A stretch of DNA of 40,805 nucleotides from Chloroflexota bacterium (GTDB taxonomy: Bacteria; Chloroflexota; Dormibacteria; CF-121). Both the position numbers and the translations under genes were made by a program. Below, in pieces: positions 2,993 through 11,127 of this stretch; the stretch's first letter is position 1, and every line of letters begins with the position of its first letter. The stretch is from the NCBI GenBank assembly GCA_005889225.1, contig VBEW01000017.1, positions 1 through 40,805 on the forward strand, in the 5' to 3' direction. Under the pieces are notes generated by a model. It was not told where the DNA came from. It saw nothing but the letters and a program-made list of their open reading frames with translations, and ran no database searches.

Positions 2993-4450
2993 CTAAAGTG
3001 GCGCGGCTTTCGGTACCGTCCCCGAGGCAGCAACCGGCGCGGCGGCGGCGGCTCTGGGCCGCCAGCGCAGGTCGAGCTGGCGCGCCGCCCGGACTTCATC
3101 GAGCCGTCCCACCGGCGCCTCGTGCGGCGCGGTCCTGACCATCTCGGGATCGCGCGCGATCTCCTCGACGATCTGCTCCATCGCCTTGATAAAGGCGTCG
3201 AGCGTGGCCTTTGATTCGGTTTCTGTTGGCTCGATCATGAGCGCCTCGGGCACGATCAGGGGAAAGTAGATCGTCGGGGGGTGAAAGCCGAGGTCGATCA
3301 GCCGCTTCGCGATGTCCTTCGCCGACACGCCCTGCGCCTTTGACTTCTTTGCCGTCAGCACGAATTCATGCAGGGATGGGCCACCGAACGCATCCTCGAA
3401 GGAGCGGCGGAGGTGATGCCGCAGATAGCTGGCGTTGAGCACCGCGTTCTGGGCGACCTCGCCGATCGTGTTGCCGTAAGTACGGATGTAGGCGTAGGCG
3501 CGAACCAGCATCCCGAAGTTGCCGTAGAAGGACCGGACTTTCCCGATCGACTGCGGACGGTTGTACTCGAAACGAAATCCTTCATCGGTCCGCTCCACCG
3601 TCGGGATAGGCAGGAAGGGCACCAGGTGGGACTTGACGCCAACCGGTCCGGCGCCCGGGCCCCCACCGCCGTGCGGGGTCGAGAAGGTCTTGTGCAGGTT
3701 GAGATGGACCACGTCGAAGCCCATGTCGCCTGGCCGCGCAACCCCCACCAGCGCGTTGAGGTTGGCGCCGTCGTAGTAAACCTGGACCCCTTGCTCATGC
3801 GAAAGCCGCGCGATTTCCAGAATGTCCTTTTCGAATAGACCCACGGTGTTGGGATTGGTCAGCATCACGGCGGCCACCCGGGTCGACAATTTGCTCTTCA
3901 GATCGTCGAGCTGAACGAGACCGTCCGGCCCGGACTTGATGGTCACTGTCTTCAGCCGCGACAGCGTGGCGCTGGCCGGGTTCGTCCCATGGGCGCTGTC
4001 CGGGACCAGCACCTCATCGCGACTCTCGCCTCGGCTGCGATGGTAGGCCTGGATCATGCGCAGGCCGGTCCACTCGCCGTGGGCGCCGGCGGCCGGCTGC
4101 AGGCTCATGCGATCCATGGCGGTGAGGGCGAGCAGCGCCCGCTCCAGCTCCCACATCAGGCGCAGGGCGCCCTGCGCACGCGCCGGCGGGTGATAGGGAT
4201 GCAGGTCGGCGAAATCATCGAGGCGGGCCAGGGCTTCGTGACCCTGGTGCAGGTTGAAGTTGAGCCGTCCCAACTGGCCGAAGTGGCGCGCCACCTCCGG
4301 CTCGCTCAACGAGGCAATCGGCAAGGATGACGTTCGCCGTAAGCCGGCGGGAACGAGCTCATCGATCGGCCTGACGGTGACGCCTGGTGCCGGCAGGCGG
4401 GGGCTTGGCCGGTCCTCCCGGCCCAGCTCGAAGAGCAGGGGCTCGCTCAC
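2993..4450 (-). CDS. gcvPB: Glycine dehydrogenase (decarboxylating) subunit 2
   Basis: PLP-lysine region HLNLHKTFSTPHGGGGPGAGPVGVK; GTG start overlaps the gcvPA stop (GTGA), so the 691-aa ORF in the track is over-extended. Confidence 0.95.
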   Translation of the reverse strand: MSEPLLFELGREDRPSPRLPAPGVTVRPIDELVPAGLRRTSSLPIASLSEPEVARHFGQLGRLNFNLHQGHEALARLDDFADLHPYHPPARAQGALRLMWELERALLALTAMDRMSLQPAAGAHGEWTGLRMIQAYHRSRGESRDEVLVPDSAHGTNPASATLSRLKTVTIKSGPDGLVQLDDLKSKLSTRVAAVMLTNPNTVGLFEKDILEIARLSHEQGVQVYYDGANLNALVGVARPGDMGFDVVHLNLHKTFSTPHGGGGPGAGPVGVKSHLVPFLPIPTVERTDEGFRFEYNRPQSIGKVRSFYGNFGMLVRAYAYIRTYGNTIGEVAQNAVLNASYLRHHLRRSFEDAFGGPSLHEFVLTAKKSKAQGVSAKDIAKRLIDLGFHPPTIYFPLIVPEALMIEPTETESKATLDAFIKAMEQIVEEIARDPEMVRTAPHEAPVGRLDEVRAARQLDLRWRPRAAAAAPVAASGTVPKAAPL

Positions 4451-6185: not shown

Positions 6186-7274
6186 TCATTTGGGATGAGG
6201 TCGCTTGTAAAAGGGGAGAGAAACCACTTCCGCCGGCGCCGCGCTCCCGCGGACATCGACCTCGAGTCGCGTCTGTGGTTCCGTCAGCGCAGGAGGCACG
6301 TAGGCCATCGCGATGTTGTAGCCGAGCGTGAAGGAGACGTTTCCCGAGCTGACCACCCCAAGGGGTCGCCCGTCGCGCAACACCCGATAGCCATGACGCG
6401 GAATGCTTCGATCGAGCATCTTCAGACCGACCAGCCTCCGGTCGAGACCGCTCTGGCGCGCCCGCACGATGGCGTCCCGGCCGATGAAATCCTTGTCAAG
6501 GCTCAGCGTCCACTCCAGACCTGCTTCGAGCGGATTGGTCTTGTCATCCATGTCGTTCCCGTAGAGCCGCATTCCCGCTTCCAGTCGGAGTGTGTCACGC
6601 GCCCCCAGGCCTGCCGGACGGATGCCGTCGGCCTGGCCCTCCTCGAGCAACGCCCGCCACAGCCGGCCGGCGTCGTCGTTTCCGCAGAATAACTCGAAGC
6701 CATCTTCGCCGGTGTAGCCAGTCCTCGAAATCACGCAGGCCACGTCCGCGACCCGGCCCTCGATGAAGGCGTAGTACTTGATACCGTCGAGCGGGGATGG
6801 GGTCAGGCGCTGCACCAGACCCACCGCGCGTGGCCCCTGGACGCCCACGAGCGCCCACTCCCGACCGACGTTGAAGACTGGGCCGTCCGGGGAATGCGAG
6901 CGGATCCAGTCGAAGTCGCTGTCCTGATTGCCGGCATTGACCACCAGCAGATAGCCACCATCCGCTACCGCATAGACAAGGACGTCGTCGATGATGCCAC
7001 CGTCGTCATTGCATAGCAGGGCGTATTGGACCCGTCCCGTCCGCAGCGCGGTCAGGTCGCGGGTGAGGAGCCGCTGCGCGACGGCATCGTCCTTGAGACG
7101 GATCTCCCCCATGTGAGACAGATCGAACAGACCGACGGCCTCCCGGACGGCTCGATGTTCCTCGCGGATGCTGGTGTACTGCAGCGGCATGAGCCAGCCG
7201 CCGAAGTTGGTCATCTGGGCGCCGAGGCGGACGTGTTCCTCGTACAGCGGGGTCCGCTCGGCAGTCACGACCAA
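6186..7274 (-). CDS. gcvT: Aminomethyltransferase (glycine cleavage T protein)
   Basis: TPLYEEHVRLGAQMTNFGGWLMPLQYTSIREEHRAVREAVGLFDLSHMGEI...SRTGYTGEDGFELF; TTG at 7274 or GTG at 7268 as start. Confidence 0.96.
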   Translation of the reverse strand: MVVTAERTPLYEEHVRLGAQMTNFGGWLMPLQYTSIREEHRAVREAVGLFDLSHMGEIRLKDDAVAQRLLTRDLTALRTGRVQYALLCNDDGGIIDDVLVYAVADGGYLLVVNAGNQDSDFDWIRSHSPDGPVFNVGREWALVGVQGPRAVGLVQRLTPSPLDGIKYYAFIEGRVADVACVISRTGYTGEDGFELFCGNDDAGRLWRALLEEGQADGIRPAGLGARDTLRLEAGMRLYGNDMDDKTNPLEAGLEWTLSLDKDFIGRDAIVRARQSGLDRRLVGLKMLDRSIPRHGYRVLRDGRPLGVVSSGNVSFTLGYNIAMAYVPPALTEPQTRLEVDVRGSAAPAEVVSLPFYKRPHPK

Positions 7275-7277
7275 ACG

Positions 7278-7862
7278 TCAGGCCTCGTGGTCGTCAAGGT
7301 CGTCGATGTAATCGCGGAGCTCCTGGTCGTTCAGATCGCGCGCCTCGCCGAGCATCCCGAGGATGACGTTGACGCGAGCCTCCTCCCACTGCAGGAGCTT
7401 GGCGAGCTCGGCGGGTGTTGCCGGTCGACTCAAGCGGCCCGAGAGCAGCCGCTGCGCCGACTCCAGCAGGCGGCAGGCGACCACGAACGCCTCATCGTTG
7501 CGTTGTGCCTCTTCCGTCTGCGCCAGCACATCATCCATCGTCGCGGCGATGGCATGGACCAGCCGCGCGTGGAAGGCGCCCTCTCCCGGCTTGTAATGCT
7601 CAACGGCCGAGATCAGGCCCACCGTCCCTTCCTGGAACAGGTCGCCGAAGGCGACGCCGCGCTTCTTGCGAGCCTGGGCGGCCTCCAGAACGAGATAGAG
7701 GTTGTGCTCAATGAGTCTGCGGTTCGCGTCGTCGCGGGCAGGGCCCTGGCTGTTGAGCAGCCGCCGCTCCTCGTCGTTGGACAGGCGCGGATAGCGAGCC
7801 AGCTGGGCTCGGTAATCGGCCTCTTCACCATCCACGGATCGCGGCTCGGCACGTTGCGCCAC
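7278..7862 (-). CDS. Sigma-70-like protein (regions 1.2-2-3-like, no region 4)
   Basis: YRAQLARYPRLSNDEERRLL, RRLIEHNLYLVLEAAQARKKRGVAFGDLFQEGTVGLISAVEHYKPGEG resembles sigma-70 regions 1.2-2.2; RPATPAELAKLLQWEEARVNVIL resembles region 3; ends in an acidic tail. Confidence 0.75.
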   Translation of the reverse strand: MAQRAEPRSVDGEEADYRAQLARYPRLSNDEERRLLNSQGPARDDANRRLIEHNLYLVLEAAQARKKRGVAFGDLFQEGTVGLISAVEHYKPGEGAFHARLVHAIAATMDDVLAQTEEAQRNDEAFVVACRLLESAQRLLSGRLSRPATPAELAKLLQWEEARVNVILGMLGEARDLNDQELRDYIDDLDDHEA

Positions 7863-7868
7863 ACCTTC

Positions 7869-7874
7869 ATTCTA
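7869..7874 (-). promoter_or_regulatory. Putative -10 (TAGAAT) of leaderless promoter for the sigma-like/gcv operon
   Basis: TAGAAT + GAAGGT + GTG start at 7862. Confidence 0.5.
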
Positions 7875-7880
7875 CGAAGG

Positions 7881-7898
7881 CCCGACCGCTCGGCCGGG
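7881..7898. promoter_or_regulatory. 18-bp imperfect palindrome between divergent promoters (candidate operator)
   Basis: cccgaccgctcggccggg; 7 of 9 arm positions complementary. Confidence 0.4.
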
Positions 7899-7900
7899 AC

Positions 7901-7906
7901 TATCAT
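7901..7906 (+). promoter_or_regulatory. Putative -10 (TATCAT) of leaderless nfeD promoter
   Basis: TATCAT + caactc + GTG start at 7913. Confidence 0.5.
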
Positions 7907-7912
7907 CAACTC

Positions 7913-9295
7913 GTGAAGAGGGCTGGTCGCCTCTTTCTCGCGGCCGTCACGCTGGTCGCGCTTTTGCCTGCCACCGCAGCGCGCGCTGCCGAGCCGCACG
8001 TCGTGGTCGCCACCCTGAACGGCGTGATCAACCCGATCACTGACAACTACGTCTCGAATGCCGTGGACAAGGCGGTGCAGGGACACGCGGGCGCGCTGAT
8101 CATCGCGCTGGACACCCCAGGCGGCCTCGACACGTCCATGCGCAACATCATCAAGAAAATGCTGGGAGCCCCCGTCCCGGTTGTGGTCTTCGTCTCGCCC
8201 TCCGGGGCACGGGCCGCCTCCGCCGGGATGTACATCACGGAGGCCGCCGACATCGCCGTGATGTCGCCCGGCACGAACATCGGCTCGGCCCACCCGGTCA
8301 GCCTGGGCGGCAGTAACCCGGCACCCAGTGCCAGCCCCGGAGCCTCGGGCGCGTCGCCGGCTCCCGACATCGAGGACCAGAAGATCGAGAACGACGCCGC
8401 CGCCTACGCCCGCGCGCTGGCCACCCTCCACCACCACAACGCCGACTGGGTTGAAAAAGCCGTCCGGCAGAGCATCAACGCGCCTGCGGACGAGGCCGTA
8501 CAGCTGGGAGTCGTCGACTTCGAGAGCCGCGACCTCGACACCTTGCTACAGGATCTCGACGGCCGGCAGGTCACCAAGGGTGGCCGCAGCTACACATTGC
8601 AAACGGCTTATGCCGGGATCGAGCGGGTCGACATGAGCGGCTTCGACCAGTTCCTGGAAGCGGTCGCTGACCCGAACCTGGTCTACCTGCTCTTCCTGCT
8701 GGCGATCATTGGGATCGGTTTCTGGGTGACGCATCCCGGCCTGGTGCTGCCGGGCGTCGTGGGCGTGATCGCCGGCTTGCTCGCCGCCCTGTCCCTCTTC
8801 AATCTCCCGATCAACATCGCGGGCTTGCTCCTGATCCTGCTCGCGATTCTGCTATTCATCGTGGACCTCAAAGCCGTGACCCACGGCGTCCTGACGACCG
8901 GTGGCATCGTCGCGATGACCCTGGGCGGATTGCTCCTGATCAACACCGGCTTTCTCTCGGAAGCCGTCAATCTTCCACTGCTGCTCATCACGGTCCTAAC
9001 CATCGCCGGCATCTTCTTCTTCATCCTTCAGAAAGTGATCGCCTCCCGGCGGCAGCCGTACGCCGCAGGCGAGGAGTCCATGGTGGGTCACATTGGAACG
9101 GTCCGCGAGTCGCTCCACCCGGATGGCATGGTCTTCGTCGACGGCGCGCTGTGGCAGGCAACCGCGACGAGCGGGCCGCTGCCCGCAGGCACTCAGGTCC
9201 GGATACTCGGGCTGGATGGCCTTCGGCTCCGCGTGGAGCCGGTGCAGCAGCAACAAGGCACGATGGCGGAGGGACCGCAAGTGGCATCCTCATAG
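7913..9295 (+). CDS. NfeD-family membrane-bound ClpP-class serine protease
   Basis: Signal peptide, LDTPGGLDTSMRNIIKKML, FVSPSGARAASAGMYI, multi-TM segment and C-terminal NfeD OB-like domain (GHIGTVRESLHPDGMVFVDGALWQATA). Confidence 0.93.
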   Translation: MKRAGRLFLAAVTLVALLPATAARAAEPHVVVATLNGVINPITDNYVSNAVDKAVQGHAGALIIALDTPGGLDTSMRNIIKKMLGAPVPVVVFVSPSGARAASAGMYITEAADIAVMSPGTNIGSAHPVSLGGSNPAPSASPGASGASPAPDIEDQKIENDAAAYARALATLHHHNADWVEKAVRQSINAPADEAVQLGVVDFESRDLDTLLQDLDGRQVTKGGRSYTLQTAYAGIERVDMSGFDQFLEAVADPNLVYLLFLLAIIGIGFWVTHPGLVLPGVVGVIAGLLAALSLFNLPINIAGLLLILLAILLFIVDLKAVTHGVLTTGGIVAMTLGGLLLINTGFLSEAVNLPLLLITVLTIAGIFFFILQKVIASRRQPYAAGEESMVGHIGTVRESLHPDGMVFVDGALWQATATSGPLPAGTQVRILGLDGLRLRVEPVQQQQGTMAEGPQVASS

Positions 9296-9346: not shown

Positions 9347-10144
9347 GTGGGCATATTCGCGCTGATCGTCCTCGGCATCATCGTCCTGGTCGTGCTTATC
9401 GGCTTGAGCTCGGCGATCCGCATCATCAACGAGTACGAGCGCGGCGTCCTATTTCGGCTGGGCCGCTTGATGACGCTGAAGGGACCCGGCCTGCGGCTGA
9501 TCATTCCGTTTGGCATCGACAGGCTGGTCAAGATCGACCTGCGGACGGTCACCCTGGAGGTGCCGCCCCAGGAAGTCATCACGCTCGACAACGTCACGGT
9601 GAAAGTCAACGCGGTCATCTACTTCCTGGTCGTGAATCCGAATTCCGCCGTGACCAAGGTGGCCAACTATATCAACGCCACGTCACAAATAGCGCAGACG
9701 ACATTACGGAGCGTGCTCGGCCAGTCGACCCTCGATGAGCTCCTGGCGAACCGCGAGAAGATCAACACCAGGCTGCAGCAGATCATCGACGAGCAGACCG
9801 AGCCCTGGGGCATCAAGGTCTCGACCGTCGAGATCAAGGATGTCGAGCTGCCGCAGACGATGCAGCGCGCTATGGCGAAGCAGGCCGAGGCCGAGCGCGA
9901 GAAGCGGGCGAAGATCATCCACGCCGAAGGCGAGTTCGCGGCCGCCAAGCAGCTGACCGAGGCGGCCACGGTTATCGCCCAACAGCCGAGCGCACTGCAA
10001 CTTCGCTATCTACAGACCCTCACCGAAATTGGGGTCGAGCGGAACACCGTCATCGTCTTCCCAATGCCGATCGACATGATGCAACAGCTCATCGAGCTGC
10101 GGGACGCCAAAGGCCGGGGGTCGACGGCACCGGCGAAGACCTGA
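9347..10144 (+). CDS. SPFH/Band 7 slipin (stomatin-like)
   Basis: [18 protein letters not shown]...[56 protein letters not shown] before GTG. Confidence 0.95.
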
Positions 10145-10167: not shown

Positions 10168-11127
10168 GTGGCCCTCGATGTCGCCACCGTCGTCATCCTC
10201 AGCCTCATCGGCGGCCTCTACGTGCTTGCCAACTTCGGCGAGCAGAACCCAACCGCCCGCATCATCACGCTGGTTGCCGGCGGCGGGCTCTCTGCGATCG
10301 CGCTGCTGGCGGGCCTGCTGGTAGCCGTGAACAACGTGGCCCAGTACGCCGTCGGCGCGGTGCGCCCCGAGCAGTTTCGGACCAATGAGCTGCTCGGCAT
10401 TCCCCTGACGATTGCGGGCGCCGCCGGCCTGCTCTACCTGTGGCCACCGATCCAGCGCGCCGTTGCGCGGGTGATCCCGGTGCGTCCCGGGTCGCCAGTC
10501 ATGTACCTGACCGTGGTGCTTGGACTGCTGTTGGTGGCCCAGCAAGTTGGGGCGCAGGTGCAGCCGGGCCCACCGCTGACAATCGGCGATCTTCTGGCAC
10601 AGGACGTCCCGTTGCTGGTCTTGTGCTTTGTCGGCGTCGGAATTTTCGTGCGTCGCTCACCGCGTCAGACGGTCGAGCGGCTCGGACTGCTTTCCCCACG
10701 CCAAAAGCGGTGGTGGCTGGTGGCCGTCCTCGGCATCGGGGTGTTCATCGCGGTGGCGTTCGCGATCGAGGCAGTCGCCAACGTCGTCTCCCCGAGTCAG
10801 CAAAAGCAGGTCACCGACGTGACGACCGCCCTGTTCAGCCACTTCAACAATCCCGCCGCCATCATCTTCCTCGGGGTACTGGCGGCCGTCGTCGAAGAAA
10901 CCCTCTTTCGCGGCGCCCTGCTGCCGCGGTTTGGCATCGTGATCAGTTCCATTCTGTTCGCGGCGCTCCACACGCAGTACGCCGTGAGCTTTGCCACCCT
11001 GGAGGTCTTTACGCTCGGGCTGGGGCTGGGATGGTTGCGCGTGCGCGCCGGCAGCATCCTTCCCGGCATGGTGACCCATGCCGGCTACGACATTGCTGTG
11101 GGGTTCCTCTCGCTCATCGCGAAATAG
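10168..11127 (+). CDS. CPBP-family intramembrane metalloprotease
   Basis: Multi-TM protein with EETLFRGALLPRFG, FAALHTQYA and THAGYD motifs. Confidence 0.87.
   Translation: MALDVATVVILSLIGGLYVLANFGEQNPTARIITLVAGGGLSAIALLAGLLVAVNNVAQYAVGAVRPEQFRTNELLGIPLTIAGAAGLLYLWPPIQRAVARVIPVRPGSPVMYLTVVLGLLLVAQQVGAQVQPGPPLTIGDLLAQDVPLLVLCFVGVGIFVRRSPRQTVERLGLLSPRQKRWWLVAVLGIGVFIAVAFAIEAVANVVSPSQQKQVTDVTTALFSHFNNPAAIIFLGVLAAVVEETLFRGALLPRFGIVISSILFAALHTQYAVSFATLEVFTLGLGLGWLRVRAGSILPGMVTHAGYDIAVGFLSLIAK

Follow-up and report, generated by a model that had tools for sequence, protein, structure and literature searches.

The 50-bp gap that separates the divergent genes for a sigma-like protein and an NfeD protein is, with good confidence, an ordinary compact pair of independent divergent leaderless promoters, between which a palindrome lies by coincidence; the positions of the elements, their conservation in relatives and a genome-wide signal of the same kind are direct observations. 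According to this reading, two distinct leaderless promoters would point outward from a compact divergent region, each depending chiefly on a TANNNT -10 box placed 6 nt before a GTG codon, and each mRNA would begin at or beside its own start codon, where we place the transcription start sites. The left promoter would serve the operon that comprises the sigma-like gene, gcvT, gcvH and two gcvP-like ORFs, while the right one would serve NfeD, the slipin (Band_7) and CPBP genes, beyond which lie parA and a parB-like gene. Most likely both promoters are modest and fire independently, although their activity and the absence of regulation are themselves deduced.

The window (the whole stretch of 40,805 nucleotides that was analysed) corresponds to contig C35 in a genome bin of soil Chloroflexi (2.9 Mb, 296 contigs, ~65% G+C), and the close relatives of its genome are soil Chloroflexi bins too. 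The features are collected in the table below. Only six proteins were covered by the Pfam scan; for gcvH, the gcvP ORFs and parB, the names derive from sequence and gene order.

Features of the divergent promoter region and of the flanking operons (positions in the window)
Feature	Position	Strand	Remarks
Divergent promoter region, intergenic, 50 bp	7863..7912	.	50 bp between both start codons, also in same-genus genomes
-10 box TAGAAT, sigma-like/gcv operon	7869..7874	-	6 nt from GTG; identical in 14/14 same-genus genomes
Leaderless GTG start, sigma-like gene	7860..7862	-	GTG or ATG in 14/14 relatives
-10 box TATCAT, NfeD operon	7901..7906	+	6 nt from GTG; 5/6 columns invariant in 14/14
Leaderless GTG start, NfeD gene	7913..7915	+	invariant in 14/14; frame opens with signal peptide MKRAGRLFLAAVTLVALLPATAARA
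Possible weak -35, NfeD promoter	7878..7883	+	AGGCCC, 17-bp spacer; its assignment as -35 is inferred
Imperfect palindrome CCCGACCGCTCGGCCGGG	7881..7898	.	7/9 pairs; probably chance; centre 2 bp from middle of gap
Sigma-like protein, 194 aa	7278..7862	-	sigma regions 2 and 3, without region 4; degenerate 2.3/2.4
gcvT, second gene of sigma-like operon	6186..7274	-	synteny; then gcvH and two gcvP-like ORFs
NfeD1b-type protein, 460 aa	7913..9295	+	Pfam NfeD1b_N, NfeD_membrane, NfeD
Slipin/SPFH (Band_7) protein	9347..10144	+	Pfam and synteny
CPBP (Rce1-like) membrane protein	10168..11127	+	Pfam and synteny

The first-pass annotation had placed the gap, both boxes and their 6-nt distances, the 26-bp separation and the palindrome correctly. 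The first base of the reverse GTG is 7862 and the forward GTG begins at 7913, so that the two start sites, if transcription begins there, are 51 bp apart, with 26 bp (7875-7900) between the two -10 boxes. A clear signal peptide at the beginning of its frame speaks for the forward GTG as the NfeD start. Strong -35 boxes were sought in this window with spacers of 16-18 bp, and the best match to TTGACA was 2/6 on each side.

The evidence that both boxes are real comes mainly from comparison among 14 genomes of the same genus (L002-L015, genus g1, the window's own included), in all of which the spacer is 50 bp long. At 7869-7874, ATTCTA (the reverse TAGAAT) is invariant in 14/14 genomes; the forward TATSATCA at 7901-7908 varies at position 7904 alone (C/G); the sigma-like gene starts with GTG or ATG, and NfeD always with GTG. 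The mean pairwise column identity is 1.00 for the reverse -10 box and 0.93 for the forward one, as opposed to 0.51 for the palindrome columns, with third codon positions in the first 20 codons giving 0.49 for the sigma-like gene and 0.70 for NfeD. Across the 14 species the spacer has almost no invariant part but the two boxes, and most of the remainder varies about as much as third codon positions do. Conserved besides the boxes, for reasons we cannot fully explain, are G7880 (14/14), C7882 (13/14), C7887 and G7897, of which the first two fall within the putative NfeD -35, a hexamer that in relatives mostly reads ACGACN. The comparison was extended to three more genera within the family and, in another family of the class (f3), to five genomes; in all these lineages both -10 boxes are kept 6-9 nt from the starts, the reverse one as ATTCTA, ATTGTA or ATTTTA. 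Conservation of the spacer, which had been suggested as a check, thus gave a divided answer: the -10 boxes and the flanking genes are kept, but the symmetry of the palindrome is lost in most relatives, the outcome that had been named in advance as refuting it.

The same type of signal is found throughout the sampled genomes. A simple codon-based gene caller was applied to 369 kb of G000 and 715 kb of G003, a member of the same genus. TANNNT occurs at 6, 7 and 8 nt from candidate starts with frequencies of 2.6%, 1.6-1.8% and 0.9-1.3%, against a background of ~0.4% at most other distances and ~0.1% at internal codons. A candidate box at 6-8 nt precedes 217 of 1,499 called genes, which, after subtraction of the background of ~0.4% per distance, corresponds to a leaderless share of ~11% of genes, a very rough figure given that the true starts are not known. 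Matches to the -35 consensus at four or more positions are only mildly enriched in the sampled genomes (30 vs ~17 in shuffles). The gap carries the marks of leaderless sigma-70-type promoters, namely TANNNT 6 nt from the start on both sides and joint conservation of box and start in relatives. The earlier assignment of divergent leaderless promoters is therefore borne out by the conserved boxes, starts and spacing together with the genome-wide leaderless signal. That one or both boxes are coincidental, with transcripts beginning upstream within the opposite gene, is very improbable, since both boxes and their distance to the starts are invariant across genera and TANNNT is enriched genome-wide at the same distance.

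The palindrome fares differently. An 18-bp imperfect palindrome does exist near the midpoint of the gap, as the first-pass annotation had reported, but as a feature it is unconserved and resembles chance: L012 and the two closest relatives retain 6/9 pairs, the other ten 1-4/9. Among shuffled 50-mers, 3.6% reach 7/9 pairs at 18 bp, and in 35% of shuffled gaps a palindrome of 14-22 bp can be found that has no more than two mismatched pairs. Allowing up to 3 mismatches, we found 27 matches genome-wide vs 44 for the reversed control. Conservation, shuffles and genome-wide recurrence all speak against a role as an operator, which we reject, and the palindrome is most likely incidental. An operator-controlled divergent switch would be recognized by a conserved operator between its promoters, which this gap does not have.

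It had also been proposed that transcription from the two promoters is mutually exclusive and forms a switch. In such a model, polymerase on one side would block access to the opposite promoter, while the direction would be set by a regulator that binds the palindrome. The geometric premise is sound: with the starts placed 51 bp apart and an assumed polymerase footprint of about -40 to +20, footprints would by our own arithmetic overlap by some 30 bp, and two polymerases could not occupy the gap simultaneously. Moreover, the 26-bp spacing is constant in genus g1 and in L016 (genus g4), and strong activation of one side of an E. coli bidirectional promoter can repress the other (PMC12825309). 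However, the palindrome is neither conserved nor recurrent, and the distance between the -10 boxes is 12 bp in L017, 43 bp in L018 (the other two sister genera) and 60-80 bp in f3, all with the same flanking gene order. In addition, the five E. coli bidirectional promoters studied have basal activities too low for competition (PMC12825309), and, by analogy with them, we adopt independence as the default reading. A switch is consequently very unlikely; a short gap and overlapping footprints alone do not imply one here. Clade-wide selection for a fixed interlock spacing is rejected in view of the range of 12-80 bp in other lineages. A caveat to the preferred reading of two independent promoters is that geometry may be important within g1 and L016, where the spacing stays at 26 bp.

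Compact divergent pairs recur in the lineage. In 1.48 Mb of G003 we surveyed 203 divergent pairs, 9 of which have TANNNT boxes on both sides; six of these nine have starts <90 bp apart, some of them sharing a single -10, whereas control box distances give 0-1 close pairs each. The spacings of the six close pairs are 20 bp (three pairs with overlapping boxes), 33, 51 (the orthologue of the site described here) and 59 bp, and G000 contributes one additional divergent pair (L047), whose starts are separated by 25 bp. In the pairs with overlapping -10 boxes (e.g. TACGATA), the likely starts are 20-25 bp apart; they are located in L047 near 3480-3495, and in G003 on C9 near 131700 and 156850 and on C14 near 87730. 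We regard these as candidate leaderless bidirectional promoters. This lineage of soil Chloroflexi thus appears to have leaderless promoters, and compact divergent pairs of them, as a matter of course; for the mapping of start sites, the gap is a conserved example with clear bounds.

The sigma-like protein deserves separate consideration. Its homology to SigA extends over regions 2 and 3 (E 6.5e-28), and its predicted structure (pLDDT 89.5) has sigma factors as the best Foldseek matches, at TM-scores that are modest (about 0.5). Region 2.2, which contacts the polymerase clamp, retains its DLxQEG motif. On the other hand, FHARLVHAIAATMDDVLAQT stands where SigA has a conserved tyrosine, tryptophans and RQ, which means that the protein has lost RQ and the melting aromatics; the features of a functional sigma-70 factor (the aromatics of regions 2.3/2.4, the -10-reading residues and region 4) are missing. 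The gene is kept beside gcvT-gcvH across the window's family and f3. Its position next to the promoter region in relatives with conserved synteny, together with the clear SigA homology and the sigma-factor fold matches, would suit an alternative sigma that reads one of the -10 boxes and controls its own promoter region. This is nonetheless highly improbable: both boxes resemble the ordinary genome-wide TANNNT signal, and a promoter-reading role is disfavoured because the protein has no region 4 and the segment with which SigA reads the -10 box is replaced. It is possible that the protein is a promoter-blind sigma paralogue. The further idea of a promoter-blind pseudo-sigma that would bind RNA polymerase, tune -10-only leaderless promoters and link glycine cleavage with the NfeD-slipin operon is distinctly unlikely. 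A literature search on sigma factors without region 4 returned nothing more specific. We consider the sigma-like protein a better lead than the switch, and a sigma factor so degenerate merits a study of its own.

In f3 (L026, L028-L031), the gap between the divergent genes holds TGTTCCACGTTTTACA, a non-palindromic parS-like 16-mer. Genome G033 has 10 exact copies (on C52 and other contigs), one of them ~25 bp from a parB-like gene, and none of the reversed control. It may be a divergent parS. The 16-mer is absent from G000, and no parS was found in the window within 3 mismatches.

Among known systems, stand-alone TANNNT boxes that adjoin ORFs act as leaderless promoters in Deinococcus (PMC12340547), and predictions of leaderless genes exist for 4 out of 12 Chloroflexi genomes (PMC3160421). 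The leaderless TANNNT promoters of Deinococcus-Thermus (PMC12340547) and Actinobacteria (PMC3160421) resemble those described here in the short distance from box to start, the G+C-rich background and the often weak or absent -35; unlike them, the predicted promoters of the gap belong to a Chloroflexi lineage and stand back to back. A literature search on overlapping divergent promoters yielded nothing more specific. The bidirectional promoters of E. coli and Salmonella (PMC12825309, PMC10268837) are similar in that their divergent starts are too close for two polymerases. However, they share one near-symmetric -10 element, with starts 10-23 bp apart in the E. coli promoters of PMC12825309 and 7-25 bp apart in the definition of Warman et al. 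(PMC10268837). The gap, with two -10 boxes 26 bp apart and probable starts separated by 51 bp, falls outside that definition, and the other pairs in G000 and G003, with overlapping boxes and presumed starts 20-25 bp apart, fit the bidirectional class better.
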